Positions 5,102-23,816 of a stretch of DNA of 41,689 bases are shown one piece after another (the first letter of the stretch is position 1; each line of letters opens with the position of its first letter). Under the pieces are notes generated by a model. It searched no databases. It was not told the origin of the DNA and was given only the letters and a program-made list of their open reading frames with translations. The translations under genes and the position numbers were made by a program. The DNA lies in contig JASMLW010000618.1 in NCBI GenBank assembly GCA_030748485.1, forward strand, positions 1 to 41,689, in the 5' to 3' direction. The DNA comes from Pirellulaceae bacterium. GTDB taxonomy: Bacteria > Planctomycetota > Planctomycetia > Pirellulales > Pirellulaceae.

Positions 5102-5785
5102 ATGCAAGTCGCGGAAATTTACAAATCGGCGCAAGGAGAAGGGCGTCTGACGGGCGTCGAAAGTGTCTTTGTGCGCGCGTCGGGTTGCAATCTTCGCTGT
5201 TGGTTTTGCGACACTCCATTTGCTTCCTGGCGGCCCGAGGGAGACGACCTCTCGGTCGATGAAATCGTCAGCCGTATCTTCGAGTGGGACTGCGAGCACA
5301 TCGTGCTGACCGGCGGCGAGCCGATGTTGTTTTCCGAATTGACTCCGCTTTGCCAGCGACTGCGAACGGCCGGCCGCCACATCACGATCGAAACGGCCGG
5401 CACGCTGCACTTGCCCGTGCAGTGCGACTTGATGTCGATCAGCCCGAAAACCGCGAATTCCGCGCCGGATCGAGCCGAGCAGCCGCGGTGGCGAGCTCGC
5501 CACGAACAGACCCGCTGGGCTCCTCTCGTGCTGCAACGCTTGATGTCCGAACACGACCATCAGCTCAAGTTCGTTGTCGATACGCCCGACGATTGCGACG
5601 AGATCGAACAACTTGTGGAGCAGTTGAACGCCGCTCGCCAGCGCGTCTATCTAATGCCCCAGGGCGTCACACCCGAACAACTTGCCGATCGCGGCGACTG
5701 GCTCGAGGCCGAATGCCGGCGGCGCGGTTTGCGCTTCTGCCCGCGCCGGCAAATCGAATGGTTCGGGCTGACAAGAGGCACGTAG
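5102..5785 (+). CDS. queE: 7-carboxy-7-deazaguanine synthase QueE (radical SAM)
   Basis: 227 residues. QueE converts 6-carboxy-tetrahydropterin to 7-carboxy-7-deazaguanine, the ring-contraction step on the way to preQ0, using a [4Fe-4S] cluster and S-adenosylmethionine. The cluster motif is CNLRCWFC (C29, C33, C36; CxxxCxxC), the SAM-binding GGEP is at 71-74, and IYKSAQGEG at the N-terminus is the usual QueE substrate/SAM entry motif. The start at 5102 has only a weak GAG upstream. The C-terminus ends with the conserved FCPRRQIEWFG block. It is near queF, its downstream pathway enzyme, but on the opposite strand; queC and queD are not in the window. Confidence 0.96.
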   Translation: MQVAEIYKSAQGEGRLTGVESVFVRASGCNLRCWFCDTPFASWRPEGDDLSVDEIVSRIFEWDCEHIVLTGGEPMLFSELTPLCQRLRTAGRHITIETAGTLHLPVQCDLMSISPKTANSAPDRAEQPRWRARHEQTRWAPLVLQRLMSEHDHQLKFVVDTPDDCDEIEQLVEQLNAARQRVYLMPQGVTPEQLADRGDWLEAECRRRGLRFCPRRQIEWFGLTRGT

Positions 5786-11080: not shown

Positions 11081-12013
11081 TCAACTGGTGGGCGCGTGAA
11101 GTAGGGCCAGCGAGCCGATTCCGTAAAACGTGTATTCGACGTCGGTCGCCGGATCGAGAGCGGCTCCGTGAAATCCGCCTCCGCCAATCGCCAGACTATT
11201 GATGTAACGTTGGACGAGCGGCAACTGGAGTTCGTGGAGCGCCTGGAGATCGCCGAGCGTGACAATCGCTGTGAAGGTGCTCAGCAAATCAGCGAACGGA
11301 ATCCGCGTGTTGGCTCGCAACCCTCCTTCGTCGGTCTCCATTTCGAGCAGGAAATCGATCGTCTCGTCGCAGATTTCCTCAGTCAGGTCGCCGTGGATCC
11401 GCAGCAGTCCGATCGCGGCCGCGGTCGGATTCGCCCCCGCTCGTTTGCTCGCCCGCATTTCGTGAAAGCCGCCCCCCTCGGCGCGTTGGGAGAGCACGAA
11501 CCGCACCGCGTCGGCCGGCTGGGGGATGGGCCGTTCGAGCAGCTGCAGGCAGAGCGTGACGAGAAATGTGTGGTAGGTGCTGCTGGCGGCCCCCTCCGCT
11601 CCTTTGGCGTAGCCACCGTCATCGCGGCGAAGTTTCTCCATGGCGTCGGCGACGTTGTCCCGCCAGCCGTCCTGAGCGTCGGAGAAAATGTCGATGCCGG
11701 CCGAAATCTCGAGCAGCGCCGCGCTGTACATCAACGAGAGAAAATCAACAATCGACTCGCGGCCCGTCAACCTGCCTCGCAGGAAGGCCGCGGCCCGCTC
11801 GGCGACCTCACCGTACAGCTCGCCGAGAATCGACAGACTGCGGAGTCCGAAGCCGGTGTAGTACAGATCACTGTCTCCCTCGCGACCGGCGAAGCCCCCA
11901 TCGGCGCGCTGTTGTTGCAGAACGAAGTTACCGTGCAGCCGGCGGACTTCCTCCGGCAACGCGGCGGTTCCGGTCGCCAAGCGGATCGTCAATTCTTCTA
12001 GATAAGAGAGCAT
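11081..12013 (-). CDS. Prenyltransferase-beta-like / squalene-oxidase-repeat protein
   Basis: 310 residues from the ATG at 12013; the frame upstream overlaps the thioesterase gene and is not used. The protein is a chain of alpha-alpha repeats with the signature Q..DGGF.G at several points (QQQRADGGFAGREGDSDLYYT, RRDDGGYAKG, RAEGGGFHE, ETDEGGLRA, IGGGGFHG). This is the alpha/alpha toroid shared by the beta subunits of protein prenyltransferases and by terpene cyclases. No DXDD motif is seen, and the zinc ligands of protein farnesyl/geranylgeranyl transferases are not obvious, so enzyme activity is uncertain. It follows the thioesterase gene by 43 bases and lies near the cyclase and polyprenyl synthase genes. 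Confidence 0.8.
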   Translation of the reverse strand: MLSYLEELTIRLATGTAALPEEVRRLHGNFVLQQQRADGGFAGREGDSDLYYTGFGLRSLSILGELYGEVAERAAAFLRGRLTGRESIVDFLSLMYSAALLEISAGIDIFSDAQDGWRDNVADAMEKLRRDDGGYAKGAEGAASSTYHTFLVTLCLQLLERPIPQPADAVRFVLSQRAEGGGFHEMRASKRAGANPTAAAIGLLRIHGDLTEEICDETIDFLLEMETDEGGLRANTRIPFADLLSTFTAIVTLGDLQALHELQLPLVQRYINSLAIGGGGFHGAALDPATDVEYTFYGIGSLALLHAPTS

Positions 12014-12056
12014 CGGGCGATCGAATGGGACATCGGGCTGCTGGAGACGGCGGGCT

Positions 12057-12482
12057 TCAGGGTGTTTCAACGTAAGGGGCGAACCGCTGGCGGAGCTCGT
12101 CGGAAATTGGAATTGATCGCAGCGGCCGCGGCGGTTCGACTCGACAACGGACGACGTTGATCCTGCCCGTGGCGATTGGGCGATCTCCCGCTGTGAAGGC
12201 GAACGCGTAGGCGGCGCTGGAGCGTCCCAGTGGTTCCACTCGCGGCTCGATATCCAGCACCTCCTCGAATCGCACGGCTCCCGTGTAGTCGCAGTCGGCA
12301 TGGACTCGCGGCCAGCTGACAACTCCTTCGTTATCGCGGGTGACAACGCTGGCGCCGAGCGACCGCGGGAACTCGTGCTCGACCTCCTCCATCATCCTGA
12401 AGAACGCCGAGAAGTGCATGATGCCCGCCGCATCGGGGTCGCGGAATTCGACTCGCCGCTGGGTGCGAAATGGGGAGGACAT
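12057..12482 (-). CDS. Acyl-CoA thioesterase, 4HBT/YbgC-like hot-dog fold
   Basis: 141 residues. The N-terminal motif VEFRDPDAAGIMHFSAFFRMMEE corresponds to the 4-hydroxybenzoyl-CoA thioesterase active-site helix; D17 is the likely catalytic Asp, followed by the G-x-x-H/Y segment. Length and motif order match the YbgC/FadM class, which hydrolyses acyl-CoA thioesters; substrate unknown. No signal peptide. It is 72 bases downstream of rpsR and 43 bases upstream of the prenyltransferase-beta-like gene, all on one strand. The start at 12482 is the only reasonable one. Confidence 0.9.
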   Translation of the reverse strand: MSSPFRTQRRVEFRDPDAAGIMHFSAFFRMMEEVEHEFPRSLGASVVTRDNEGVVSWPRVHADCDYTGAVRFEEVLDIEPRVEPLGRSSAAYAFAFTAGDRPIATGRINVVRCRVEPPRPLRSIPISDELRQRFAPYVETP

Positions 12483-13044: not shown

Positions 13045-14895
13045 TCAGGTTCTTTCCGCGGTGATTGCGGGAGCCGCATCGATCGTCGGAAACGCCATGG
13101 GGCCGGCGTCTTCAGGGGGGCGATCGAGAACCGTGTCGATGAGGTAGTGAAGTAAACGGCGAAACTCGTCAGACTTCACATCGTCGGCGATTGCTTCGGC
13201 GCGTTGGTGGTGCTTCTCGACCAGACGGTCAGCTTTTTCAAACACGTTGGCCTGATTGTACAACTGACGAACTCGCCGCACGCGGTGCTCGGCCGTCGAC
13301 TCGTCGTCGTCGATCAGCTGGCTCAGTTCGCGCTGGTCGGCCGCCGGCAGCCCGTCGAGCGCGAGGGCCCAGAGCACGGTGGGCCGCCCGCCGAGAATAT
13401 CACCGCCCGCCGCCAGTTTGTTGTCGTTGTCGCCGCGCCAGTCTTTGAGGTCATTAAGCACCTGGAAGGCGACCCCCAGGTTTCTCGCGAAGGCTCGAAT
13501 CGGAGCCTGGTATTGCTCGACCGAACCGGCCAGGCGAGCACCGCAATAGAGGGCTGCTTCAAACGCCGGCGAGGTCTTCAACGCATAGATTTTCAACGCG
13601 TCGATCGGCTTCAGGCGTTTGTTCAACGAGTCGCGCCAGAGCAGCTCGGCGCCTTGCCCCTCGCACAACTTCATGTGCGCTTCGGCCAGACAGTTGAGGA
13701 TATCGGCGCACGTTTCCGCACCTAGCGCGGAAGATTCGCGACTGACCAGGCGATAGCCGAGCCCGATGAGGTAGTCGCCGACATTGATGGCCGTCGGCAC
13801 GCCGTGTTTGCAATGCAGCGTTTCTTCGCCGTAGCGAAACTCGTCGTCGTCTTCAATATCATCGTGAACGAGCGAAGCCTTGTGGAACGTCTCGATCGAC
13901 ATGGCCGTCCGCTTGACGGCGTCGGGCAACTGACGAACTTGCTCGGCTCCGTCACCGAGCGTGGCGTTTCCACCAGTCAACGCGTCGTAGACGGCTAACG
14001 TGATAAACGGTCGCGAGTGCTTGCCGCCCTTTGCCAGGAAGTCGTACGCCAAAGCCTCGGTCGCGGCGACCGGATCGAGACCTCCGACGCCTTGGCCGTT
14101 CATTTCCGCTAAACGCGGACCGCCGCGCAGTCTGGGAGCCAGCCGATCGAGCTCGTCGTCGCCGAACATCCGCGCCGCGCCGCGCATCAAGTGCACGTAG
14201 TTGCGCGTCTGCTGGGCCGGCTGCTGGTGGGCGACCTTGATCATGTCGAACACCCAGTCCTCGTCGACCGCCGTGTTGCGACAGTCGCTCGACAACAGCG
14301 GCGTGGCCATGCAGGGGATGCCGGCCAAGAGGATCTTGTCGATCGCTTTCTCGAGCACGTTCAAACAGGCGACGCCGACGATCGCGTCGACGTGACCGCT
14401 GACGATGATCTTCAACACGATCGGTGAGCCCTCAGCCACCAACACCTTGTAGCCCATCTCTTCCGCGATGGCGCGGAAGTCGGCGATGCTGCACGCGCCG
14501 CAAGTCTTGCAATCCAAACCGAACTCGTCGTAGTCCGCCGGGCAACCCTCGGCGTGCTTGAGGCAGTGGGGCAGCAGAAAGAGCCTCCGCTGGGGCGGAA
14601 TCCCCGCCACCTGATCGCGCCAAAACTCAGTCGCCAACATCACCATCGTCCAGCCGACAAAACTTTCCGGCAGCCCGGCGTCGTTGAGTATCTGGCGGCA
14701 GATCGTCTCCATTTCGTCCTTGGTGAGCGGACGCTCCTTGTCCAATTCGGCGGCGATCGTCGCGCAGGTTTGCCGCAGTTGGTCGCGTTGAGCCTTTGTA
14801 TCGGGAACCTGCTTCAGGTGAGCCGTCTTGCGGCGTCTGGAACGGCGTTTGCCCGGAGTGGGCGTAGACGCTGTTTCCGAGGGTGCTGTTGCCAA
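13045..14895 (-). CDS. DUF116 - polyprenyl synthetase fusion protein
   Basis: 616 residues from a TTG at 14895, supported by AAGGA seven bases upstream. After a basic 35-residue tail, about 50-270 form a DUF116 domain: [20 protein letters not shown] then [11 protein letters not shown], with a cysteine cluster that could hold metal, and [13 protein letters not shown]. From about 285 to 600 the chain is a class I polyprenyl diphosphate synthase, with first aspartate motif HDDIEDDD (about 344-351) and second motif NDLKDWRGD (about 480-488). Such synthases extend allylic diphosphates with isopentenyl diphosphate. Both parts look intact. The cyclase gene lies 71 bases upstream on the same strand, suggesting product transfer to it. 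Confidence 0.93.
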
Positions 14896-14966
14896 GGTGC
14901 TGTCCTTCGATGTCGTCTCAATCGCCCGGGAGGGTGGGGCGGTGGCGGGCTGTTTTGGATTTGATT

Positions 14967-16802
14967 CTAATCCACTCGGCGACGGATTGCTCGGCCTAAG
15001 GCGGAGACCGAGTAGATCAGTGGATAGAGCCGCTCATGATACCACAGCTTGGCGAAGTAGAAACCGATCGGAGAGCGGACCCGATGACCGCCCGATTCGG
15101 CCAATTCAACCAAGTGAAGCAGTCCTCTCTCCAACGCGACAGTGAAATCTGTGTCCGCCGGCGACGCCAGCAAGGCCTCGACGGCAAGAGCCGTTTCTTC
15201 GGTGCTGCTAACGACTTGGCGGCGCTCGGGGTCGGCCGACACCCCGCCTCCCCAACCCCCATCCGCGTTCTGGTTCGTCGCCAACCAGTTGAAACCCCGC
15301 TGGGCGGCCAAGGTATTGGTTTTCCCGCAGTCCCGGTACGCCATCAGCGTCTTCGCCGTGCCGTAAATCGGATTCTCCTCTTTTGGGTGGTCCTGGTTGC
15401 CGAACCACAACGGCTGCCAGGAGCCGTCCGCCGCCTGCCGCCGCTCCAGATAGCGCCAACCGCGAGCGGCGGCTCGTCCCGCTCGCCGCGCAAGCGCCGG
15501 TGGCATTTCGGACTGCCAGGCATGGAACGCGCGGAGCGCGTGGGCGGTGAGGTCGGCTCCACTGCGGTCGAACGGCAACTTGCCCCACCCGCGACAGAAC
15601 GTCGGCCATCCGCCGTCGCGATTCTGCAGCTTGAGTAGCCAGTCGGCTCCGCACGCGGCCGCGTCTCGCATCCGCTGTTTGCCCGCTTCCCCGCACGACG
15701 CTCCGTCGCGCCAACTGGCGAGGGCGAGCAGCGCCGCCGGTGTGTCGTCCGCGTCGGGAACCGCGCCCGACAGATTCGTCCAGCCCCAACCGCCCGGGTC
15801 GGCTCCCGTGAACGGATGTCGCTCCGTGTTCTGGCAGTCGAGCAACCACTCCATCGTGAGCTCCGCGTCCGGCAGGGACGCCAAGTCATCTCCGCCACCC
15901 GCCAACGCGGACAGCGATAGAGATGTGTTCCAAGTGGCTAGATTCGTGTCGATCGGCCAACTGCCGTCGGCGCGGACGCTCTCCCGCAGAAACCTCACTC
16001 CCGCCGACACGACTTCATTGTCGACCTGCCCGGCGCCGACAAGACTCATCACAACGAAGCTGGTCAAGGGGACCGCCTCGAGGTATCCGCCGCTGGCCGG
16101 TTGGATCCGTTCGAGCACTCGCAAGCTGGGCGCGACGGCGGCGGCGCGGATCCAGCGGAGCGGGGGAAACCAAGGCTTTTGATGAGCAAATTTCACTTGT
16201 CCCACAGCGACCAGGGCGGGAATCGCGTAGCTGACAACCGGCAGCCGCAGAAAACGATAGAACGACTGCGGGAAACAGGCCAACTCAAACGGCAATGATG
16301 AAACGTCCGACCATAACGCCAACTCGGCGAGCGCGCAGTTCGTCAGAATCGGAACGGCGAACGTCTTGTCCTTGCCGTAACGGGCGCGGAGGGCGTCCAG
16401 CCTGCCAGCTCGATCGACGTACGCGTCGCCCGCGGCGATCAACTCGCGATGCCGATCGGCGTTTCCGGAGAGGTGGAGTGCGGCCACGGCCAGCATCGTG
16501 GTGGCCACATTCGAGTAGCTCAGGTCCGTGTCTCCCCAGCCCCCATCCTCATTGGCGTGAGCGGCGAGGTAGTCCACACCGGCGTCGACGAGATCGCTGA
16601 GCTTCGATTCGTGCGGGCGAGCCGATCGAACAAGCGACAGGGCGCTGATCGCCGTGGCGGTGGAGAGTGCCGAAGTAGCCAACTCACCCGTCCAAACACC
16701 CGCCTGGCGCTCGGCCAGAAGGTCCCCGCGAGCCGTCTGATAGGCCGACTGCAACCGGTCGGTGGACAGTTGAGATTGGCTAGTAACCGAAAGCGGATTC
16801 AT
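14967..16802 (-). CDS. Class II terpene cyclase, squalene-hopene-cyclase-like
   Basis: 611 residues from the ATG at 16802 (a weak GGGA upstream), slightly shorter than squalene-hopene cyclases. Repeated QW-type motifs occur along the chain (ANEDGGWGD, ADPGGWGWTN, QNRDGGWPTF, QAADGSWQP, QNADGGWGGG). The acid motif of class II cyclases is PDADDT at about 345-350, in the same context as the DVDDT of squalene-hopene cyclase; the middle Asp protonates the substrate. No membrane-spanning helix, consistent with monotopic attachment. The DUF116-polyprenyl synthase gene follows after 71 bases. A C30 hopanoid-type or a shorter prenyl substrate is possible; the usual squalene-synthesis genes hpnCDE are not in the window. 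Confidence 0.88.
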   Translation of the reverse strand: MNPLSVTSQSQLSTDRLQSAYQTARGDLLAERQAGVWTGELATSALSTATAISALSLVRSARPHESKLSDLVDAGVDYLAAHANEDGGWGDTDLSYSNVATTMLAVAALHLSGNADRHRELIAAGDAYVDRAGRLDALRARYGKDKTFAVPILTNCALAELALWSDVSSLPFELACFPQSFYRFLRLPVVSYAIPALVAVGQVKFAHQKPWFPPLRWIRAAAVAPSLRVLERIQPASGGYLEAVPLTSFVVMSLVGAGQVDNEVVSAGVRFLRESVRADGSWPIDTNLATWNTSLSLSALAGGGDDLASLPDAELTMEWLLDCQNTERHPFTGADPGGWGWTNLSGAVPDADDTPAALLALASWRDGASCGEAGKQRMRDAAACGADWLLKLQNRDGGWPTFCRGWGKLPFDRSGADLTAHALRAFHAWQSEMPPALARRAGRAAARGWRYLERRQAADGSWQPLWFGNQDHPKEENPIYGTAKTLMAYRDCGKTNTLAAQRGFNWLATNQNADGGWGGGVSADPERRQVVSSTEETALAVEALLASPADTDFTVALERGLLHLVELAESGGHRVRSPIGFYFAKLWYHERLYPLIYSVSALGRAIRRRVD

Positions 16803-17156
16803 GCGTGAATTCCCAGTTAAACAGCAGCCGATCAAGTGTAGATAGCCGTCAGTGCGATCACAACCTGGACGCCAACTGGCCCTGCCCGGCCGCCCCGATT
16901 TCCGATCCCAGGGGGCGCCGGCCGAAACGGACGATTCTCGTCCGCGGAATGGCAACTCGATCGACCCAACTCAATCGCGCCAAACGGGGCGAAAAACGGG
17001 GCGAAGCAAGTCGCCAACGGGTGACGTCTCGCGCCGCGTTTGTCGTGAAGAATCTGTCTGGCTTCTGCGCCGAAAGCACTCTACAATCGGAACTCAATTT
17101 TGCGGTGACCGCCTCCCTTCGCGAGGCGTCCTTTCGGATGAGCGTGCGAAATCACA
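16803..17156. other. Divergent intergenic region
   Basis: 354 bases between the cyclase start (minus) and the metallopeptidase start (plus). Open frames crossing it have no family resemblance and I reject them. A TACAAT at about 17089-17094 could be a plus-strand -10 box for the metallopeptidase gene, but no good -35 accompanies it. Nothing else was seen. Confidence 0.5.
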
Positions 17157-18287
17157 ATGGCGAAACGACGCGCCGTTCGCAATTCCAAGACGGCCCAACA
17201 ATCCCGGAAAGCGGCGACGCGATCAACGAAAGTTGTCGCGAAGTCACTTCGTGGACTCAACGGCGCAGCTAATCACCAGCCCGCCTGGACGCGCTTGTCC
17301 GATAGTGAATTGCTCGACGTCCGCATCTGCGATCTGGGCGTTCGTCTCGAGGGCACCGTGCTCGAGACTCGCGTTCAGCGAATGTACGATGAACTGGCGG
17401 CCCGCAACATCTGTTTTCGGCCGCATTGCTGGTTGAGCGACGATTGGTTTTCCCCCGACGGCGTTCCCGGCATCGGGATTCCGTTTTACATGGCGCACCC
17501 GCGGCTGACTCGCCTGGAACGCAACCAGATGTTTGAAGTCGAGGGGGGCACTCAAGAGTGGTGCATGCGCATCCTCCGCCACGAAGCGGGGCATTCGATG
17601 GACACGGCCTACCGTCTCGGCCGCCGCCGCCGTTGGCAAGACGCATTCGGCAAGCCCTCGAAGCCCTATCCGGAACACTACCAGCCGAAGATGTACAGCA
17701 AGAGCTACGTGCAACATTTGGAAGCTTGGTACGCGCAAAGCCACCCGGCTGAAGACTTCGCCGAGACGTTCGCAGTTTGGCTGCGGCCGCGTTCGCGGTG
17801 GCGCGTGCAATACGCAAATTGGCCGGCGCTGCACAAGCTGGAGTACGTCGATGAGTTGATGGACGAGATCCAGGACACCAAACCCAAGTTTGTCTGTCGC
17901 GAGCGCGTCGACCCAGTCCGCAAGATTCGCAAGACATTGCGGGAGCACTACAGCGAGAAGCGCGAGCGATACTGTGTGGGCGGCGACACGTTTTACGACC
18001 ACGACCTCAGACGACTCTTCTCGGACTCGCCCGAGTGCGCCCGCAACGGTTCAGCGGCGGCCTTCTTGCGGCGCTCGCGCAAGGAACTCAGGCAAGTCGT
18101 CGCCGAGTGGACCGGACAATACCAGTACACGATCGACCAAGTTCTCTCCGAAATGATTGAGCGGTGCCGGGCGCTGCGGTTGCGGTTGGATCGGCCCGAA
18201 CAGACGGCCAAGCGCGACGCCCAGTTGATGTTGACAGTCCAAACCATGAACTTCTTGCACCGGGGGCGCAACAAGATCGCCCTATGA
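17157..18287 (+). CDS. Putative zinc metallopeptidase (HEAGH)
   Basis: 376 residues. A lysine/arginine-rich N-terminal tail precedes a domain with RHEAGHSMD (H142, E143, H146), a gluzincin HExxH site. Some 55 residues later comes PAEDFAETFAVWLRP, giving the downstream Glu ligand in the pattern xxED(W/F)AETFA that I associate with the putative zinc-binding metallopeptidase family (PF15887-like). It lacks a signal peptide and is therefore probably cytoplasmic. The TGA stop overlaps the ATG of the ATP-grasp gene by four bases (ATGA), which implies translational coupling and a joint function. Substrate unknown; the domain call is good and the exact family tentative. Confidence 0.8.
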   Translation: MAKRRAVRNSKTAQQSRKAATRSTKVVAKSLRGLNGAANHQPAWTRLSDSELLDVRICDLGVRLEGTVLETRVQRMYDELAARNICFRPHCWLSDDWFSPDGVPGIGIPFYMAHPRLTRLERNQMFEVEGGTQEWCMRILRHEAGHSMDTAYRLGRRRRWQDAFGKPSKPYPEHYQPKMYSKSYVQHLEAWYAQSHPAEDFAETFAVWLRPRSRWRVQYANWPALHKLEYVDELMDEIQDTKPKFVCRERVDPVRKIRKTLREHYSEKRERYCVGGDTFYDHDLRRLFSDSPECARNGSAAAFLRRSRKELRQVVAEWTGQYQYTIDQVLSEMIERCRALRLRLDRPEQTAKRDAQLMLTVQTMNFLHRGRNKIAL

Positions 18288-19309
18288 GAAAACTCCGCGT
18301 CTTGGTCTTGATGGACGAGGAGCTGATGCCGCCCGACGATCTCAGCGGTTTCAGCGAGGAGGAGGTTCTCAACTGGAAGGCTGAATACGACGTCGTCGTC
18401 ACGTTGGGCGAACTCGACCAGCACGTGCTGCAGCTCGGTGTCAGCAACGATCTGGGCGTGATCCGCAACGCCCTGTTGGAGTTCAAGCCGCACATCGCCT
18501 TCAACATGTTGGAGGAGTTTCACGGCGTCGCGATCTACGACCAGCACGTCGCCAGCTATCTCGAACTGATGCGGCAGCCGTACACGGGCTGCAATCCACG
18601 CGGGCTGATGCTGGCGCACGACAAAGCGCTGTGCAAGAAGCTGCTGACGTTTCATCGGATTCGCACGCCGGACTTCATCGTGTTTCCGCGTGGCCGCGTC
18701 GTCCGCCGACCGCGCCGCCTGGAGTTTCCTCTGCTCGTGAAGTCGGTCAGCGAAGAAGCTTCGTTCGGCATCACGAAAGACTCACTCGTCTACGACGACG
18801 AGTCACTGATCGAGCGAGTCTCATTTGTTCACGACGAAGTCGAGACGGACGCGCTGGTGGAGGAGTACATCGAGGGCCGCGAACTCTACGTCGGTGTGAT
18901 GGGCAACCGCCGCCTTCGCACGTTTCCGACCTGGGAGATGCTGTTCAAAAATATCCCCGACGACATCCCCAACATCGCCACCGCGCGCGTCAAATGGGAC
19001 CCGACCTACCAAAAGAAACTCGGCATTGTCACGCAGGCCGCCAAGGATCTGCCTGAAGGAGCCGACGAGAAGATCGCCAAGTTGTGCAAACGCGTCTACC
19101 GAGTTCTCTGCTTGAGCGGCTACGCGCGGATGGACTTGCGGATGAAAGACGACGGCGCCGTCTACGTTCTCGAGGCGAATCCCAACCCCAACATCGCCTA
19201 CGGTGAGGACTTCGCCGAATCGGCCGAAACGGTTGGCATCTCGTACTCGCAATTGATCCAGAAGATCATCTACGCCGGGATGAAGTACCAGCCGGAATGG
19301 CGCGCGTGA
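18284..19309 (+). CDS. ATP-grasp ligase, D-alanine-D-alanine-ligase-like
   Basis: 341 residues from the ATG at 18284, which overlaps the stop of the preceding gene; the longer open frame is ignored. Early MRKLRVLVLMDEELMP and VAFNMLEEFHG give the N-terminal Rossmann-like part. PYTGCNPRGLMLAHDKALCKKLL is the D-Ala-D-Ala-ligase-type region after which the central ATP-grasp domain begins. FPLLVKSVSEEASFGIT is the ATP-binding Lys/loop segment, and YVLEANPNPNI carries the Glu and Asn Mg2+ ligands. Such enzymes join a carboxylate to an amine through an acyl phosphate. It is more likely a peptide or amino acid ligase than a cell-wall Ddl, given its partner peptidase and the lack of mur genes. Confidence 0.88.
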   Translation: MRKLRVLVLMDEELMPPDDLSGFSEEEVLNWKAEYDVVVTLGELDQHVLQLGVSNDLGVIRNALLEFKPHIAFNMLEEFHGVAIYDQHVASYLELMRQPYTGCNPRGLMLAHDKALCKKLLTFHRIRTPDFIVFPRGRVVRRPRRLEFPLLVKSVSEEASFGITKDSLVYDDESLIERVSFVHDEVETDALVEEYIEGRELYVGVMGNRRLRTFPTWEMLFKNIPDDIPNIATARVKWDPTYQKKLGIVTQAAKDLPEGADEKIAKLCKRVYRVLCLSGYARMDLRMKDDGAVYVLEANPNPNIAYGEDFAESAETVGISYSQLIQKIIYAGMKYQPEWRA

Positions 19310-19327: not shown

Positions 19328-20608
19328 CTATTGCTCGGTCTCGGTGATCCGCGCGAGTTCGCTTTGCCGCTGCGCCTCGCCCCGCGTCTCGCGCCAATTG
19401 TCAGGCTCAAAGTGCTTCGTGTAGGCTCCGTAGTCGTGGAAGGCGATTCTCTTGGCCAGGCGGTACGCCCAGGACCGTTCGGGAATCTCGCCGCCGGGGT
19501 TGTATTGGGACGGCCGCGGCTGCATGGCTCGCAATTCGTCAGCCGCACTGCCGCGGGCTGTGCTGTCGCGCGCTCCGTGTTTCTCGATCAATTCCTCCAA
19601 CACGTCGGGCCGCTCCAGCGCGACGCAGCCGCGCGTCGACTCGGCCGCCAGCCGCCTGAAATCGCGGAGAAACTCGGACTCGTTGAACGTCTCCCGCAAC
19701 GACTTCTCGTCGTAGATCGAATCCTTGGCGAATTGGATGATCGGGCACGGCTCGATGTCGCCCCAGGGGCTGATGTGATGCGTGAAGCCGATCGCGGCCG
19801 GGCAGAGCGCGTTGCCGTCGGCGTCGTGGTAGGCGTCGATCACGATGATCGGCTTCGTCACTCGCGCGTCGACAACGAACTGTCGCGCGTAGCGCTGCTG
19901 CTCCGGCGTCAGCGACAAATCGGCGCAGGGATCCGGGCCGACGGGCCGATAGATGTGGAACCAACAGTACAGCACGCCCATCTCGATCAACCGATCGACC
20001 CAGGCGTCCGTCATCAGGTCGTCGATGTTGGATTGACAGACGCTCGTGCATACGCCCGTCATCACCTTGTTGTCGAGACAATGCCGCAGTCCGGCCATCG
20101 TGCGGCTGTAGACGCCGTCGTGTCCGCGCCGCTCGTCGCTGACGATTTCATCCCCTTCAACGCTGATCAACGGCGTGACGTTGCCCAGACGCCGCAGTTC
20201 TTTGGCTACGTCAGCCGTGATGAAATGGCCATTCGTGAAGACCTGAAAGTAGACGTCGGGGTGGTTGCCGAGGATCGTCAGCAAGTCGGCGTGCATGAAC
20301 GGTTCGCCGCCCAGGATGCCGAAAAACGAATTGCCCGCCCGCTTGGCTTCATCGATCATCTCGTCCATCGCGGCGACCTCAATCTTCTCCTGCTTGGCCG
20401 CCACGTCCACCCAGCACCCCTGACAGCGGAGGTTGCAACTATTGATCAGTGAAATGTAGAGATACGGTGGGAAGAACTCGCCCCGCTTCAAGCGGCTCTT
20501 GTGCCGCTGCACCGATCGCAGCCCTTTGACGCCCATGTTCCAGAACAGTTTCCAGAGCAGCCGTTTGTCCGTCTCGACAAGGAGCCGTTTGGCGAGTCGC
20601 AGGTACAT
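19328..20608 (-). CDS. Radical SAM enzyme with C-terminal extension
   Basis: 426 residues from the ATG at 20608, which has GAGG nine bases upstream. CNLRCQGC (C58, C62, C65) binds the SAM cluster, GGEP is at 100-103, and ISVEGDE and the following strands complete the barrel. Cysteines in the C-terminal half (NALCPAAIGFTHHISPWGDIEPCPIIQFA) lie where SPASM-type auxiliary clusters occur, resembling the HxxxxWGxxxPC region of such enzymes. A charged tail of about 110 residues follows. The substrate is unknown. It is the last gene of the series propeller, small peptide, GcvH-like, ferredoxin and radical SAM, 76 bases after the ferredoxin stop; that ferredoxin could supply electrons for SAM cleavage. 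Confidence 0.9.
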   Translation of the reverse strand: MYLRLAKRLLVETDKRLLWKLFWNMGVKGLRSVQRHKSRLKRGEFFPPYLYISLINSCNLRCQGCWVDVAAKQEKIEVAAMDEMIDEAKRAGNSFFGILGGEPFMHADLLTILGNHPDVYFQVFTNGHFITADVAKELRRLGNVTPLISVEGDEIVSDERRGHDGVYSRTMAGLRHCLDNKVMTGVCTSVCQSNIDDLMTDAWVDRLIEMGVLYCWFHIYRPVGPDPCADLSLTPEQQRYARQFVVDARVTKPIIVIDAYHDADGNALCPAAIGFTHHISPWGDIEPCPIIQFAKDSIYDEKSLRETFNESEFLRDFRRLAAESTRGCVALERPDVLEELIEKHGARDSTARGSAADELRAMQPRPSQYNPGGEIPERSWAYRLAKRIAFHDYGAYTKHFEPDNWRETRGEAQRQSELARITETEQ

Positions 20609-20684
20609 GTCGCGTGTCCTCAGCCGTTTGTGAGCTGCAACGGTCGGCCGCATCGATCCGCCGGCGGGCCGTTCGCGAAGCACT

Positions 20685-21794
20685 TCAAAGGTCCATTTGG
20701 TCGAGTTCGTCGATCAGTTCGTCGAGTTCGTCTTTCTCTTCTTCCGCATCCGCTTCTTCGCGTTGAGCGTGGACGGGGACGGCGAGCGCGTCGCGGCCGG
20801 CGAGCAGCAGTTGTTCGTCGCGCTCTTGACCCGCAACGTCCACCGCATCGGGCGAGCCGAACAGTAACGACAAATCGATCTTCATGCTTCCGGACGAGTC
20901 CGTGGCGCCCGCGATGTTGGGCGTCTTGTGTTGCGGAAACATGATGGCGTTCTCCGGGCAGACGCGGCTGCAGGCGGGACAGCCCTTGCGGCAGTTGTCG
21001 GGTTGTTCGACCAAGATCGTCTCGGCCACATCGACCCCGTAGACTCCAAACAGACAAAAGTCGACGCACTCCATGCAATTCGTGCAACGACTGAAATCAA
21101 TCACCGGATACCACCGGCGACCAGCTTCCGCTTCGTTCCGTTGAGGCTCGGCCGGACCGCGACTTGTGGTCGCTCGAGCGGAGCCGTTGCCACTCCCGTT
21201 CGCTTCGCCACTACCGCGATGTTGTTCCCGCCCATTGCCGCTTGAGTTGTCGAGCGGCAAGGCCGTGTCGTTGGTCGGATTCTCGAAGCGGGCCCGCTGC
21301 TCGGCAGTCGCGCCACCCAGATCGATCTGCATCACCTGGACGCTGTTCTCGTGATGAATGCGCTTTATTTCATCGACGAAGTCCGCCACCGAATCACTGG
21401 CTCGTAGAGGCACGCAGTAGATCGTGCGATCGGGAATCTCCAAGTCGTCGGCGACGCGCGGCTTGTCTCCCGATTCCTCGAGCGCGTCGCTGTCGTCGTC
21501 TTCGCCCGCGGTGCGCAATTGGCTCGCCCCTACATGACCGCGGATTCCATTGCGGTCGAGAGTCCAGTGAGCCGCGCGGGGAAACAGCCAACTGACGACA
21601 ATCATGTCGCCCTTGATTCCCTGTAACGCCAGCATCCCCGTGCCGTCGCCGCGGAGGTCGTAGAGGTTGGGGATCACCGTCACATCGATCCCGGTCTCGA
21701 ACATGAGTGTCGTGACCAAGTCTTCTTCCAACTGCCGCTTCGCGGGGTTGTTGCTCTGCCCCTGCGAAATGACGACCGCGATGCGTTTGGCCAT
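20685..21794 (-). CDS. Ferredoxin-domain protein, 2[4Fe-4S]
   Basis: 369 residues. The first 165 residues form an alpha/beta domain beginning MAKRIAVVISQGQS. A low-complexity Gly/Ser/Asn linker follows, then a ferredoxin module near 237-275 with CTNCMECVDFC and CRKGCPACSRVC-P: eight cysteines for two cubane clusters, the second motif spaced CxxxCxxCxxxCP. The C-terminal 80 residues are very acidic (DELDELIDELDQMDL at the end). No signal peptide, so cytoplasmic. It is sandwiched between the GcvH-like and radical SAM genes (71- and 76-base gaps). A role as electron donor to the radical SAM enzyme is an inference. The N-terminal domain is unidentified. Confidence 0.88.
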   Translation of the reverse strand: MAKRIAVVISQGQSNNPAKRQLEEDLVTTLMFETGIDVTVIPNLYDLRGDGTGMLALQGIKGDMIVVSWLFPRAAHWTLDRNGIRGHVGASQLRTAGEDDDSDALEESGDKPRVADDLEIPDRTIYCVPLRASDSVADFVDEIKRIHHENSVQVMQIDLGGATAEQRARFENPTNDTALPLDNSSGNGREQHRGSGEANGSGNGSARATTSRGPAEPQRNEAEAGRRWYPVIDFSRCTNCMECVDFCLFGVYGVDVAETILVEQPDNCRKGCPACSRVCPENAIMFPQHKTPNIAGATDSSGSMKIDLSLLFGSPDAVDVAGQERDEQLLLAGRDALAVPVHAQREEADAEEEKDELDELIDELDQMDL

Positions 21795-21865
21795 GGTGAA
21801 GAACTCTGTGGGTGGCGTTCAAGGAACGGAAAGAAGTGGATGGGAGGGACGCACCGCCGATGTTA

Positions 21866-22330
21866 CTAGCTCAGTTGTCCCTTGATTGTACGCTGGGTCA
21901 CTTCCCAAACGCTTTCCAAGTGTTTGACGTATCCTTCCGGGGAGAGCAATGATTCCCCATCGCTCGCCATGTCAAAAAGCCATCCCTGTTCGTATTTGTC
22001 GACGTTGATCGCCGACGGGTCCGACAACAACTCGGCGTTGAAAGCGCTCAGCACGCCGCCGACCGGGGAGAACAAATCGCTCTCCGCCTTCTTGCTTTCA
22101 ATCGCCCCGATCTGTTGTCGTTCATTCAACGCCGCGCCCTCGTCGACGGTCCAGTCGAGGAAGTAAACATCTTGCAGCAACCGCACGGCGTACGCCGTGA
22201 ATCCAAAACGGAATCCAAAACGGAATTCACTGTCGTTGTGGGGTTTCGCCCACATGTGGTTTCTGGCGTATCGTCGGTCGCTCGGTATCACTGCTTCGTA
22301 CTCGCCCATCATAAACACCAAGTCGCTCAT
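21866..22330 (-). CDS. Glycine-cleavage H-like lipoyl carrier protein
   Basis: 154 residues. The central part matches the H-protein fold: RRYARNHMWA, FGFTAYAVRLLQDVYFLDW, then GAIESKKAESDLFSPVGG, where K81 falls at the lipoylated lysine of the ESVKA motif, and DPSAINVDKYEQGWLF at the end of the barrel. H proteins carry a lipoyl arm that moves between enzymes. No gcvT, gcvP or lpd is nearby, and the partners here are a ferredoxin and a radical SAM enzyme, so the protein is unlikely to serve ordinary glycine cleavage. A 12-base tandem duplication (22201-22224) adds four residues, giving FRFGFRFGF. Its ATG overlaps the stop of the small upstream gene (ATGA). Confidence 0.88.
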   Translation of the reverse strand: MSDLVFMMGEYEAVIPSDRRYARNHMWAKPHNDSEFRFGFRFGFTAYAVRLLQDVYFLDWTVDEGAALNERQQIGAIESKKAESDLFSPVGGVLSAFNAELLSDPSAINVDKYEQGWLFDMASDGESLLSPEGYVKHLESVWEVTQRTIKGQLS

Positions 22331-22482
22331 GTGTAGCGCACTCCCTGGTGTTCCGGCTCAAAGTAGACGGGCGGCGCCTCGCCGACGCGGAGCAACCTCC
22401 GGCGACCGAAGAACTGCGAGAACGGTGGGTGGTTGGAGATGAAACAGCCACCCACTTCGGTCGTAGTGGACTTGGCCGCCAT
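22327..22482 (-). CDS. 51-residue conserved-looking peptide, coupled to GcvH-like gene
   Basis: A short frame with strong support: GAGGA lies six bases before the ATG at 22482, the gene starts two bases after the propeller stop, and its TGA overlaps the ATG of the GcvH-like gene (ATGA). The sequence has a small polar start, then GGCFISNHPPFSQFF, then a basic stretch and an acidic/aromatic end. The segment xxxFISNHPPFS recalls the FVSNYPPFSxW block near the start of oxygen-independent coproporphyrinogen-oxidase-like radical SAM proteins, though the resemblance is short. It could be a small subunit, a substrate peptide of the nearby radical SAM enzyme, or a relic. The single Cys, C13, is notable. 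Confidence 0.65.
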   Translation of the reverse strand: MAAKSTTTEVGGCFISNHPPFSQFFGRRRLLRVGEAPPVYFEPEHQGVRYT

Positions 22483-22484
22483 CT

Positions 22485-23816
22485 CTATTCCTCGTCCTTC
22501 TTCCCGAAGCAGTAGAGCACTCCTTCGTCGCTGCCAATGACGAGACGCCCGCTGGCGATGGCCGCCGAAGCGACGAAGCCGCCCTTGACTTCGTGCTCCC
22601 ATACCGACTCGCCGCTCTTCAAATCGACGGCGTACAGCCGGCCGTCTCCGGCGCCGAAGTAGACGCGTTCGCCGCAGATCACGGGCGAGCAGTCGATGCG
22701 AGACTTTACGGGTAATTGCCAGACTTGCTCGCCGCTGATCGTGTCAAAGGCGCGCAGCCGCCTGTCCCGTCCGCCCACGACGACCAAGTCGCCCTTGACC
22801 GCCGCCGAACTGCGGAAGCCTTGAGCCGCGCGGGGATCCTCGAACGTCCAAGCCGTTTCGGCCTCCCGCCAATTGACGCCAAAGAAGACACCTGCTTCGG
22901 TGCCGAAGTAGACGTAGTCGCCCTGGACGGCCGGCGTCACACCCGCCGGCGATTGAATCTCGACACCCCCAGACGCTTCGCCCTTCTTCAAATCGATGAT
23001 GTGCAGCCTGCCGTCGCAACCGGCTACAAAGCAGCGGTCCTCAACAACGGTGGGAGTGCAGCGGATCTGATCGTCGATCTGATGTTTCCACGCCACCTCC
23101 CCAGTGTCCGCGTCAAGGCAGTAGAGCGTTGCGTCCTGCGAACCAAACAACACCTTGTCGCCATAGAAATTCGCGCCCGAGTCGATCTCCGCCATCGACT
23201 CGAATGTCCACAACGGATCGCCGCCCGCTTTCGCGTCGTAACAGTAGAAGATTCCGTCGAGGTCGCCGACGAATAGTTTTCCGTCGCGGATCGCCGGCGT
23301 CGCAATGAATCCGAGTGGTGTCGACGCTTGCCAAATCAACTCGCCCGTGCCGAGTTGCTGAGCGCGCACTTCGCCGTACGAGTCGGCCGTGTAGACGACG
23401 CCGTCGTCGATTACCGCCGCCCCCTCGAAGCCGCTCTCCTCGAATTCAGTCTCCCAGATCAATTCGAGTTCGTCGGGTAATTGCGAGGACGACACTCCCG
23501 TCGAGTAGATGTCGCCGCGGAACACGGGCCACGAATCGGCCGGAGCCCCGTTGCCCTGAGGAATGATCGAACCGGGCTCCTTCTTGGTCCCCGTTGTCGA
23601 AGCCCCCGCGTCGTCCCGCGGGCGTTCGAATGGGTTGGTGGTGAGCGAGTCGTTCCCGGTGGTCGTTTGCGATCCCGTGCTCGACGAACCTGTCGTCTGG
23701 GAGTAAAGCACTTGAGGTGGTCGCGACGCCGGGGGAATGCAACCCACCGCGACGACGGTGCAACCCAGCGTCAGATAGATGGCGACTGAATGCATGGTCC
23801 TTCGCCGGTCGTTCAT
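22485..23816 (-). CDS. PQQ-like beta-propeller lipoprotein
   Basis: 443 residues from the ATG at 23816, with GAGGA six bases upstream. The N-terminus is a hydrophobic signal ending VVAVGC, a plausible but non-ideal lipobox, followed by a Ser/Thr-rich linker, so it is probably exported and lipid-anchored. From about 95 onward, repeated blades of the PQQ-like type occur (GVVYTADSYGEVRAQQLGTGELIW, LFVGDLDGIFYCYDAKAG, VLFGSQDATLYCLDADTGEVAW, VYFGAGDGRLYAVDLKSGESVW, LVIGSDEGVLYCFG), seven or eight in all. These propellers usually act as binding platforms (BamB-like) rather than as dehydrogenases. It is first in an apparent operon with the 51-residue peptide, GcvH-like, ferredoxin and radical SAM genes. 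Confidence 0.9.
   Translation of the reverse strand: MNDRRRTMHSVAIYLTLGCTVVAVGCIPPASRPPQVLYSQTTGSSSTGSQTTTGNDSLTTNPFERPRDDAGASTTGTKKEPGSIIPQGNGAPADSWPVFRGDIYSTGVSSSQLPDELELIWETEFEESGFEGAAVIDDGVVYTADSYGEVRAQQLGTGELIWQASTPLGFIATPAIRDGKLFVGDLDGIFYCYDAKAGGDPLWTFESMAEIDSGANFYGDKVLFGSQDATLYCLDADTGEVAWKHQIDDQIRCTPTVVEDRCFVAGCDGRLHIIDLKKGEASGGVEIQSPAGVTPAVQGDYVYFGTEAGVFFGVNWREAETAWTFEDPRAAQGFRSSAAVKGDLVVVGGRDRRLRAFDTISGEQVWQLPVKSRIDCSPVICGERVYFGAGDGRLYAVDLKSGESVWEHEVKGGFVASAAIASGRLVIGSDEGVLYCFGKKDEE

Follow-up and report, generated by a model that had tools for sequence, protein, structure and literature searches.

A GcvH-like lipoyl carrier co-inherited with a ferredoxin and a radical SAM enzyme beside prenyl and terpene genes in Planctomycetota

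We analyzed a 41,689-nucleotide stretch of DNA (contig JASMLW010000618.1 of GenBank assembly GCA_030748485.1, our contig C618; hereafter the window) from a Pirellulaceae bacterium of the phylum Planctomycetota, concentrating on a minus-strand locus that encodes a GcvH-like lipoyl carrier, here called GcvH2, together with a ferredoxin (FD) and a radical S-adenosylmethionine (SAM) enzyme. The source genome is 8.7 Mb in 649 contigs and is 95.9% complete and 6.2% contaminated. Four intact minus-strand frames lie at the locus: a PQQ/BamB-like propeller with a lipoprotein-type signal recognized by eye (22485..23816; PQQ_2/BamB-like, 2.7e-42), GcvH2 (21866..22330; GCV_H, 2e-18), FD, which joins an N-terminal alpha/beta domain to a two-cluster ferredoxin (20685..21794; Fer4 hits), and the radical SAM enzyme (19328..20608, 426 residues from a conserved ATG; Radical_SAM, 1.8e-12). 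These Pfam calls match the domains that an earlier note, made from the letters alone, had read for all four proteins. That note had counted five tightly spaced genes, including a 51-residue frame (22327..22482, minus strand) between the propeller and GcvH2. The four intact genes and the spacing from the propeller to the radical SAM gene (2 bp, an ATGA overlap, 71 bp, and 76 bp) stand, but the 51-residue frame is a deletion stub rather than a gene of its own, as described below. The 76-bp gap assumes that the radical SAM gene starts at the ATG at 20608 and not at the GTG at 20683, an assignment backed by relatives whose proteins begin there.

GcvH2 belongs to the same fold family as the H protein of glycine cleavage (GcvH, PF01597) and shares its ExxKA lipoyl-lysine motif. 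Across 14 orthologues, neither this lysine, K81 (codon 22088..22090, minus strand), nor its ExxKA context varies, and in an alignment with the genome's true GcvH, K81 occupies the place of the lipoyl lysine, bearing out the earlier recognition of a lysine site. In contrast to these likenesses, GcvH2 is only ~30% identical to GcvH, and its score of 75 bits against TIGR00527 lies below the curated equivalog level (cut-off 115.85). The genome's true gcvH adjoins gcvPA on a separate contig (C336), while neither gcvT nor gcvP was found beside GcvH2 in the window, again in agreement with the earlier note, or in the loci of relatives that we read. Among 58 H-type proteins placed in a tree, the 28 Pirellulales GcvH2 sequences formed one group (support 93/84), which the copy from a distant family (L201) joined (98/92), and 20 true GcvH proteins from the same genomes formed a separate group (97/97). 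GcvH2 therefore did not fall with the H protein of its own genome, the outcome that the earlier note had named as a refutation. The fast-evolving second GcvH of one genome (G007, locus L231) and the clade-2 carriers sat on long branches, so their placement is unsure. Since a canonical LipA is encoded in the genome (354 bits), lipoylation of GcvH2 in trans is possible, and we predict K81 as the modified residue.

One account of GcvH2 is that it serves as a second, differently regulated H protein for glycine cleavage or one-carbon metabolism. Its family membership and retained lipoyl lysine are consistent with such a role, but it falls in a separate clade, scores below the GcvH cut-off, and never adjoins gcvT or gcvP in the loci read; its presence and absence instead follow those of FD and the radical SAM enzyme. 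We consider this account improbable, and the separate clade and distinct neighbourhood support the assignment of GcvH2 as something other than a glycine-cleavage H protein.

The co-inheritance of GcvH2, FD, and the radical SAM enzyme (the triad) was assessed in two samples. At the level of the order, the comparison took in the window's own genome and 39 relatives, 40 genomes in all. The three genes were jointly present or jointly absent in 39 of these, with all three missing from the same eight genomes; the sole exception (G028) lacked only the radical SAM gene. This count takes in four genomes (G010, G014, G030, and G039) whose GcvH2 is distant (24-27% identical) and adjoins FD and the radical SAM gene. 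At the level of the phylum, 294 genomes were sampled, and FD was present in all 59 with a strong radical SAM match (Fisher P 6e-52). The four weakest radical SAM matches (E 1e-62 to 1e-64, all others being 1e-117 or better) were judged on inspection to be a separate group and left out of this count; with them included, FD accompanied the radical SAM enzyme in 59 of 63 genomes. A fusion of DUF116 to a polyprenyl diphosphate synthase, family F14, occurred in 58 of the 59 radical SAM genomes (P 1e-49), and the 69 genomes with FD and the 68 with F14 overlapped in 66 (P 2e-59). Because the sampled genomes are related, these P values overstate the independence of the observations. The earlier note had suggested that GcvH2 takes part in a lipoyl-dependent redox or modification pathway rather than in glycine cleavage; such a role fits, since GcvH2 is separate from the H protein, has kept K81, and is inherited with a ferredoxin and a radical SAM enzyme.

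Both partners of the carrier retain the residues expected of their families. In FD, eight cysteines suited to two 4Fe-4S clusters are invariant (C237, C240, C243, C247, C268, C272, C275, and C279), and the N-terminal domain varies between clades. Although this domain was modeled with high confidence, a fold search with it returned no significant match, so that only a generic alpha/beta fold, and no function, could be assigned to it by this means. The radical SAM enzyme carries CxxxCxxC at positions 83/87/90 and conserved C294, C313, and C353 (numbering of the 451-residue frame). Its nearest curated families include NirJ2, NirJ1, and AhbC/AhbD, at about 57-69 bits, with GeoRSP also among the matches, and every score is far below its cut-off (NirJ2, 68.5 bits against 500; AhbC, 57.1 against 650; HpnH, TIGR03470, 35.3 against 225.05).

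The 51-residue frame gave no matches in domain searches. When it was used as a tblastn query against the surroundings of the GcvH-like gene in 27 relatives (other genera, in the family and the order), it gave two separate matches ~1.2 kb apart, one to residues 1-24 and one to residues 25/27-51, with one end lying beyond the contig or under the threshold in a few loci. The two parts correspond to the beginning and the end of a ~435-residue protein in these relatives, of which ~385 residues are gone in the window. This protein belongs to the HemN/HutW radical SAM superfamily (Radical_SAM, 5.6e-21; HemN_C, 1.2e-4; motif CRKRCKFCYF) and scored 183 bits against HutW, 183 against HemN, and 167 against HemW, all under the curated cut-offs. 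In 27 of 27 relatives, its gene immediately precedes the GcvH-like gene in the same orientation, 0-249 bp away as judged from tblastn ends, and the protein was found at 50% identity or more in all 39 sampled relatives.

In the window's own genome, no intact copy of the HemN-like gene was found, the best match there being 25% identical. Furthermore, the stub differs at 5 of 18 columns that are invariant in 21 relatives, while any one relative deviates from the others in at most one. Given these changed columns and the lack of a match to an intact copy in the rest of the genome, the evidence favors an in-frame deletion of some age, followed by drift; collapse of an intact gene during assembly is unlikely on the same grounds. 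The earlier note had treated the frame as a peptide belonging to the system, and a short frame close to a radical SAM gene does recall the many loci at which such an enzyme matures the precursor of a ribosomally synthesized and post-translationally modified peptide. We rejected this idea, which now has next to no likelihood, because the frame consists of the fused ends of a deleted 435-residue enzyme and none of the relatives encodes a peptide at this spot. The stub may also serve as a warning that short "peptide genes" near radical SAM genes may be remnants of larger genes.

The deletion also bears on how the lipoyl group of GcvH2 might be made. Most relatives encode two radical SAM proteins beside the lipoyl-domain protein, and a route in which radical SAM proteins of the LipS1/LipS2 type assemble lipoate exists in bacteria (PMC10332631), so the two enzymes could be imagined to build the lipoyl group on GcvH2 itself. 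However, the canonical LipA of the genome makes a LipS-type replacement unnecessary, and the HemN-like partner has been lost from the window while the triad remains; we regard this possibility as very improbable.

The HemN-like gene belongs to a set that is separable from the triad. In relatives, the usual order is an AMP-binding ligase (F15), an aldehyde-dehydrogenase-fold protein (F16), an iron-containing alcohol dehydrogenase (Fe-ADH, F7), the propeller, and the HemN-like protein, a row that we call module A. In every one of the 22 relatives with both genes on the stretch read, the propeller gene lies immediately upstream of the HemN-like one, and the row is kept wholly or in part in six genomes that lack the GcvH-like protein (G015, G023, G025, G027, G037, and G038). 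The locus had been proposed to be a single five-gene operon; the triad does stay together in relatives, but the genes form two modules, and the propeller and HemN-like genes also occur without the triad. On this basis, we rejected the HemN-like protein and the propeller as the core of the carrier system. The suggestion that the exported propeller links the triad to the envelope is likewise doubtful, because the propeller goes with the HemN-like gene in genomes without the triad as well.

The second set, module B, comprises GcvH2, FD, and the radical SAM enzyme with F10, F14, and often F26. In the window, F10 (14967..16955, minus strand) and F14 (13045..14895, minus strand) lie just outside the interval that the earlier note considered, and its account thus omitted the link to terpene cyclase and polyprenyl synthase genes at 13045-16955. 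F10 is a squalene-hopene-cyclase-like class II cyclase (SQHop_cyclase_C, 5.6e-38 in an orthologue) that keeps the DXDD motif as DADD at residue 401; its true start probably lies further in, and relatives match from about residue 60. F14 (polyprenyl_synt, 3.9e-43; DUF116, 2.5e-39) keeps DDxxD at residue 345. DUF116 is cysteine-rich and has no assigned function, and its fusion to a polyprenyl diphosphate synthase was present in 68 of the 294 sampled Planctomycetota genomes; the papers on DUF116 that a search of the open-access literature found were unrelated. F26 (11081..12346, minus strand; Prenyltrans, 1.1e-13), a prenyltransferase-type alpha-alpha toroid protein, is a frequent neighbour that distant genomes also carry within the cluster (L094, L199, L201, and L208).

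The module B cluster recurs far from the Pirellulaceae. The row GcvH2, G3E/CobW GTPase, FD, radical SAM enzyme, F10, F14, F26 is complete in L201, from a distant family in which the radical SAM enzyme is only 39% identical, and most of the row is present in varied order, in some cases with a NifS-like gene, at five loci from distant families (L208, L199, L209, L197, and L198). A G3E/CobW-type GTPase gene lies between GcvH2 and FD at six loci (L091, L094, L199, L201, L208, and L209). In Pirellulales, modules A and B abut, and four loci (L114, L134, L140, and L187) carry a near-complete set of F15, F16, F7, propeller, HemN-like protein, GcvH2, FD, radical SAM enzyme, F10, F14, and F21; L134 is from Pirellulaceae bacterium KatS3mg110, and L114 lacks only a propeller match. 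F21 (L104:11833-12387 and orthologues) adjoins F14 in Pirellulales and was not found in the window. It had no significant Pfam match, with chorismate lyase (PF01947) reaching E 0.005 in one of eight members. Its structural model (predicted local distance difference test score 92) matched the DUF98 protein AF1396 (template modeling score 0.77) and Escherichia coli chorismate lyase (0.62), indicating, at the level of the model, a chorismate-lyase/DUF98 fold.

Linkage of the triad with genes for a polyprenyl synthase and a terpene cyclase points to lipid biosynthesis. Since the triad's stable partners are isoprenoid genes, the explanation that we favor, with a confidence a little short of even, is that GcvH2 is a carrier lipoylated at K81 that acts outside glycine cleavage and serves FD and the radical SAM enzyme in the synthesis of a polyprenyl-derived, probably cyclized lipid. 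F14 would make the chain, F10 would cyclize it by protonation, and the radical SAM enzyme, reduced by FD, would change a bond on the chain or on its head group. GcvH2, through its lipoyl arm, might supply or accept electrons or hydrogen in the radical SAM step, or carry a small group. In Pirellulales, the chorismate-lyase-fold protein, AMP-binding ligase, aldehyde-dehydrogenase-fold protein, and Fe-ADH may make an aromatic head group, which could be 4-hydroxybenzoate that is then converted to the aldehyde or alcohol. What we observed are the gene families, the conserved lysine and cysteines, the distinct clade of the carrier, the co-inheritance, and the common clusters, and from these the lipoylation, substrate, reaction, and product are inferred.

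Several observations weigh against this proposal. A few genomes have F14 or F10 without the triad, so the triad may play an accessory part in making the lipid. The radical SAM gene, and sometimes FD, is distant from GcvH2 in many Pirellulales (GcvH2 loci L034, L057, and L058; radical SAM loci L095-L110), although all three are still in the genome. The radical SAM enzyme resembles tetrapyrrole enzymes (NirJ/AhbC) as much as it does HpnH, the window lacks F21 and the ligase and alcohol dehydrogenase genes, and the fold of F21 is also common to UTRA regulator/effector domains. Even so, the rival readings (sulfur transfer, a role in tetrapyrrole chemistry, and additional service in glycine cleavage) are all weaker.

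The resemblance to NirJ and AhbC raises the alternative that the two radical SAM proteins, HemN-like and NirJ/AhbC-like, make or alter a heme-type cofactor with the ferredoxin and that the propeller receives it. Both the best curated relatives of the radical SAM enzyme and the HutW/HemN-like nature of the gene deleted in the window are in keeping with this idea. However, all of the curated scores fall far short of their cut-offs, every sampled relative has the HemN-like protein whether or not the triad is present, and the triad's stable partners are prenyl and terpene genes, so we judge heme-type chemistry to be distinctly unlikely. The gene deleted in the window shares a superfamily with HutW/ChuW, HemN, and HemW, but differs from them in scoring below every curated cut-off and in usually following the ligase, dehydrogenase, and propeller row.

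Hopanoid synthesis offers a parallel to the proposed lipid pathway. HpnH is a hopanoid radical SAM enzyme that acts after squalene-hopene cyclase, and in the present cluster, too, a radical SAM gene lies beside a gene of the class II cyclase family. The two systems nonetheless differ, since the window's radical SAM enzyme is far from the HpnH cut-off, the cyclase scored 112 bits against a hopene cyclase cut-off of 431, and the cluster adds a lipoyl carrier, a ferredoxin, and the DUF116-polyprenyl synthase.

A precedent for the recruitment of GcvH-like proteins outside glycine cleavage is LbpA, the lipoate-binding proteins of the sHdr sulfur-oxidation pathway (PMC6067878). Like LbpA, GcvH2 is a lipoyl-domain protein encoded with redox partners of its own, and it could accordingly be imagined as an LbpA-like or persulfide carrier whose radical SAM partner inserts or moves sulfur. 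A NifS-like cysteine desulfurase (F39), a conceivable sulfur supplier, is indeed within the cluster of several clade-2 genomes (L091, L093, L094, L198, and L199). NifS is absent, however, from most Pirellulales loci, the partners of GcvH2 are instead a radical SAM enzyme, a ferredoxin, and prenyl/terpene genes, and neither the hdr-like genes nor the dedicated lipoate ligase that are hallmarks of LbpA were present in any conserved GcvH2 neighbourhood that we read. We therefore consider a sulfur-handling role unlikely.

If the lipid proposal is correct, GcvH2 would represent a further use of H-protein lipoyl carriers, next to glycine cleavage and sulfur oxidation of the LbpA type, in which a lipoyl-GcvH2/ferredoxin/radical SAM machine carries out a radical step on a polyprenyl or cyclized terpenoid lipid, possibly one with an aromatic head group, and is ancient and widespread in Planctomycetota; we put this broader claim forward as a possibility, with more doubt than the proposal itself. 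Only a few pathways are known to use lipoyl carriers, and Planctomycetota are a group with unusual cell envelopes, in which the module would predict a new membrane or redox lipid. The earlier note knew of no described system with such a set, and a search of the open-access literature, subscription papers being outside its scope, likewise found no description of GcvH, radical SAM enzyme, and ferredoxin together in Planctomycetota. The analysis offers gene targets in cultured species, for example Blastopirellula marina DSM 3645, which has a radical SAM-F10-F14-F21 locus (L136).

Two further features of the window were observed. On the plus strand, at 17157-19309, overlapping frames for a Peptidase_Mx metallopeptidase and a D-Ala-ligase-like ATP-grasp protein separate F10 from the radical SAM gene. 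A small radical SAM protein at 5102-5785 (plus strand) appears by eye to be QueE-like, as in queuosine precursor synthesis.

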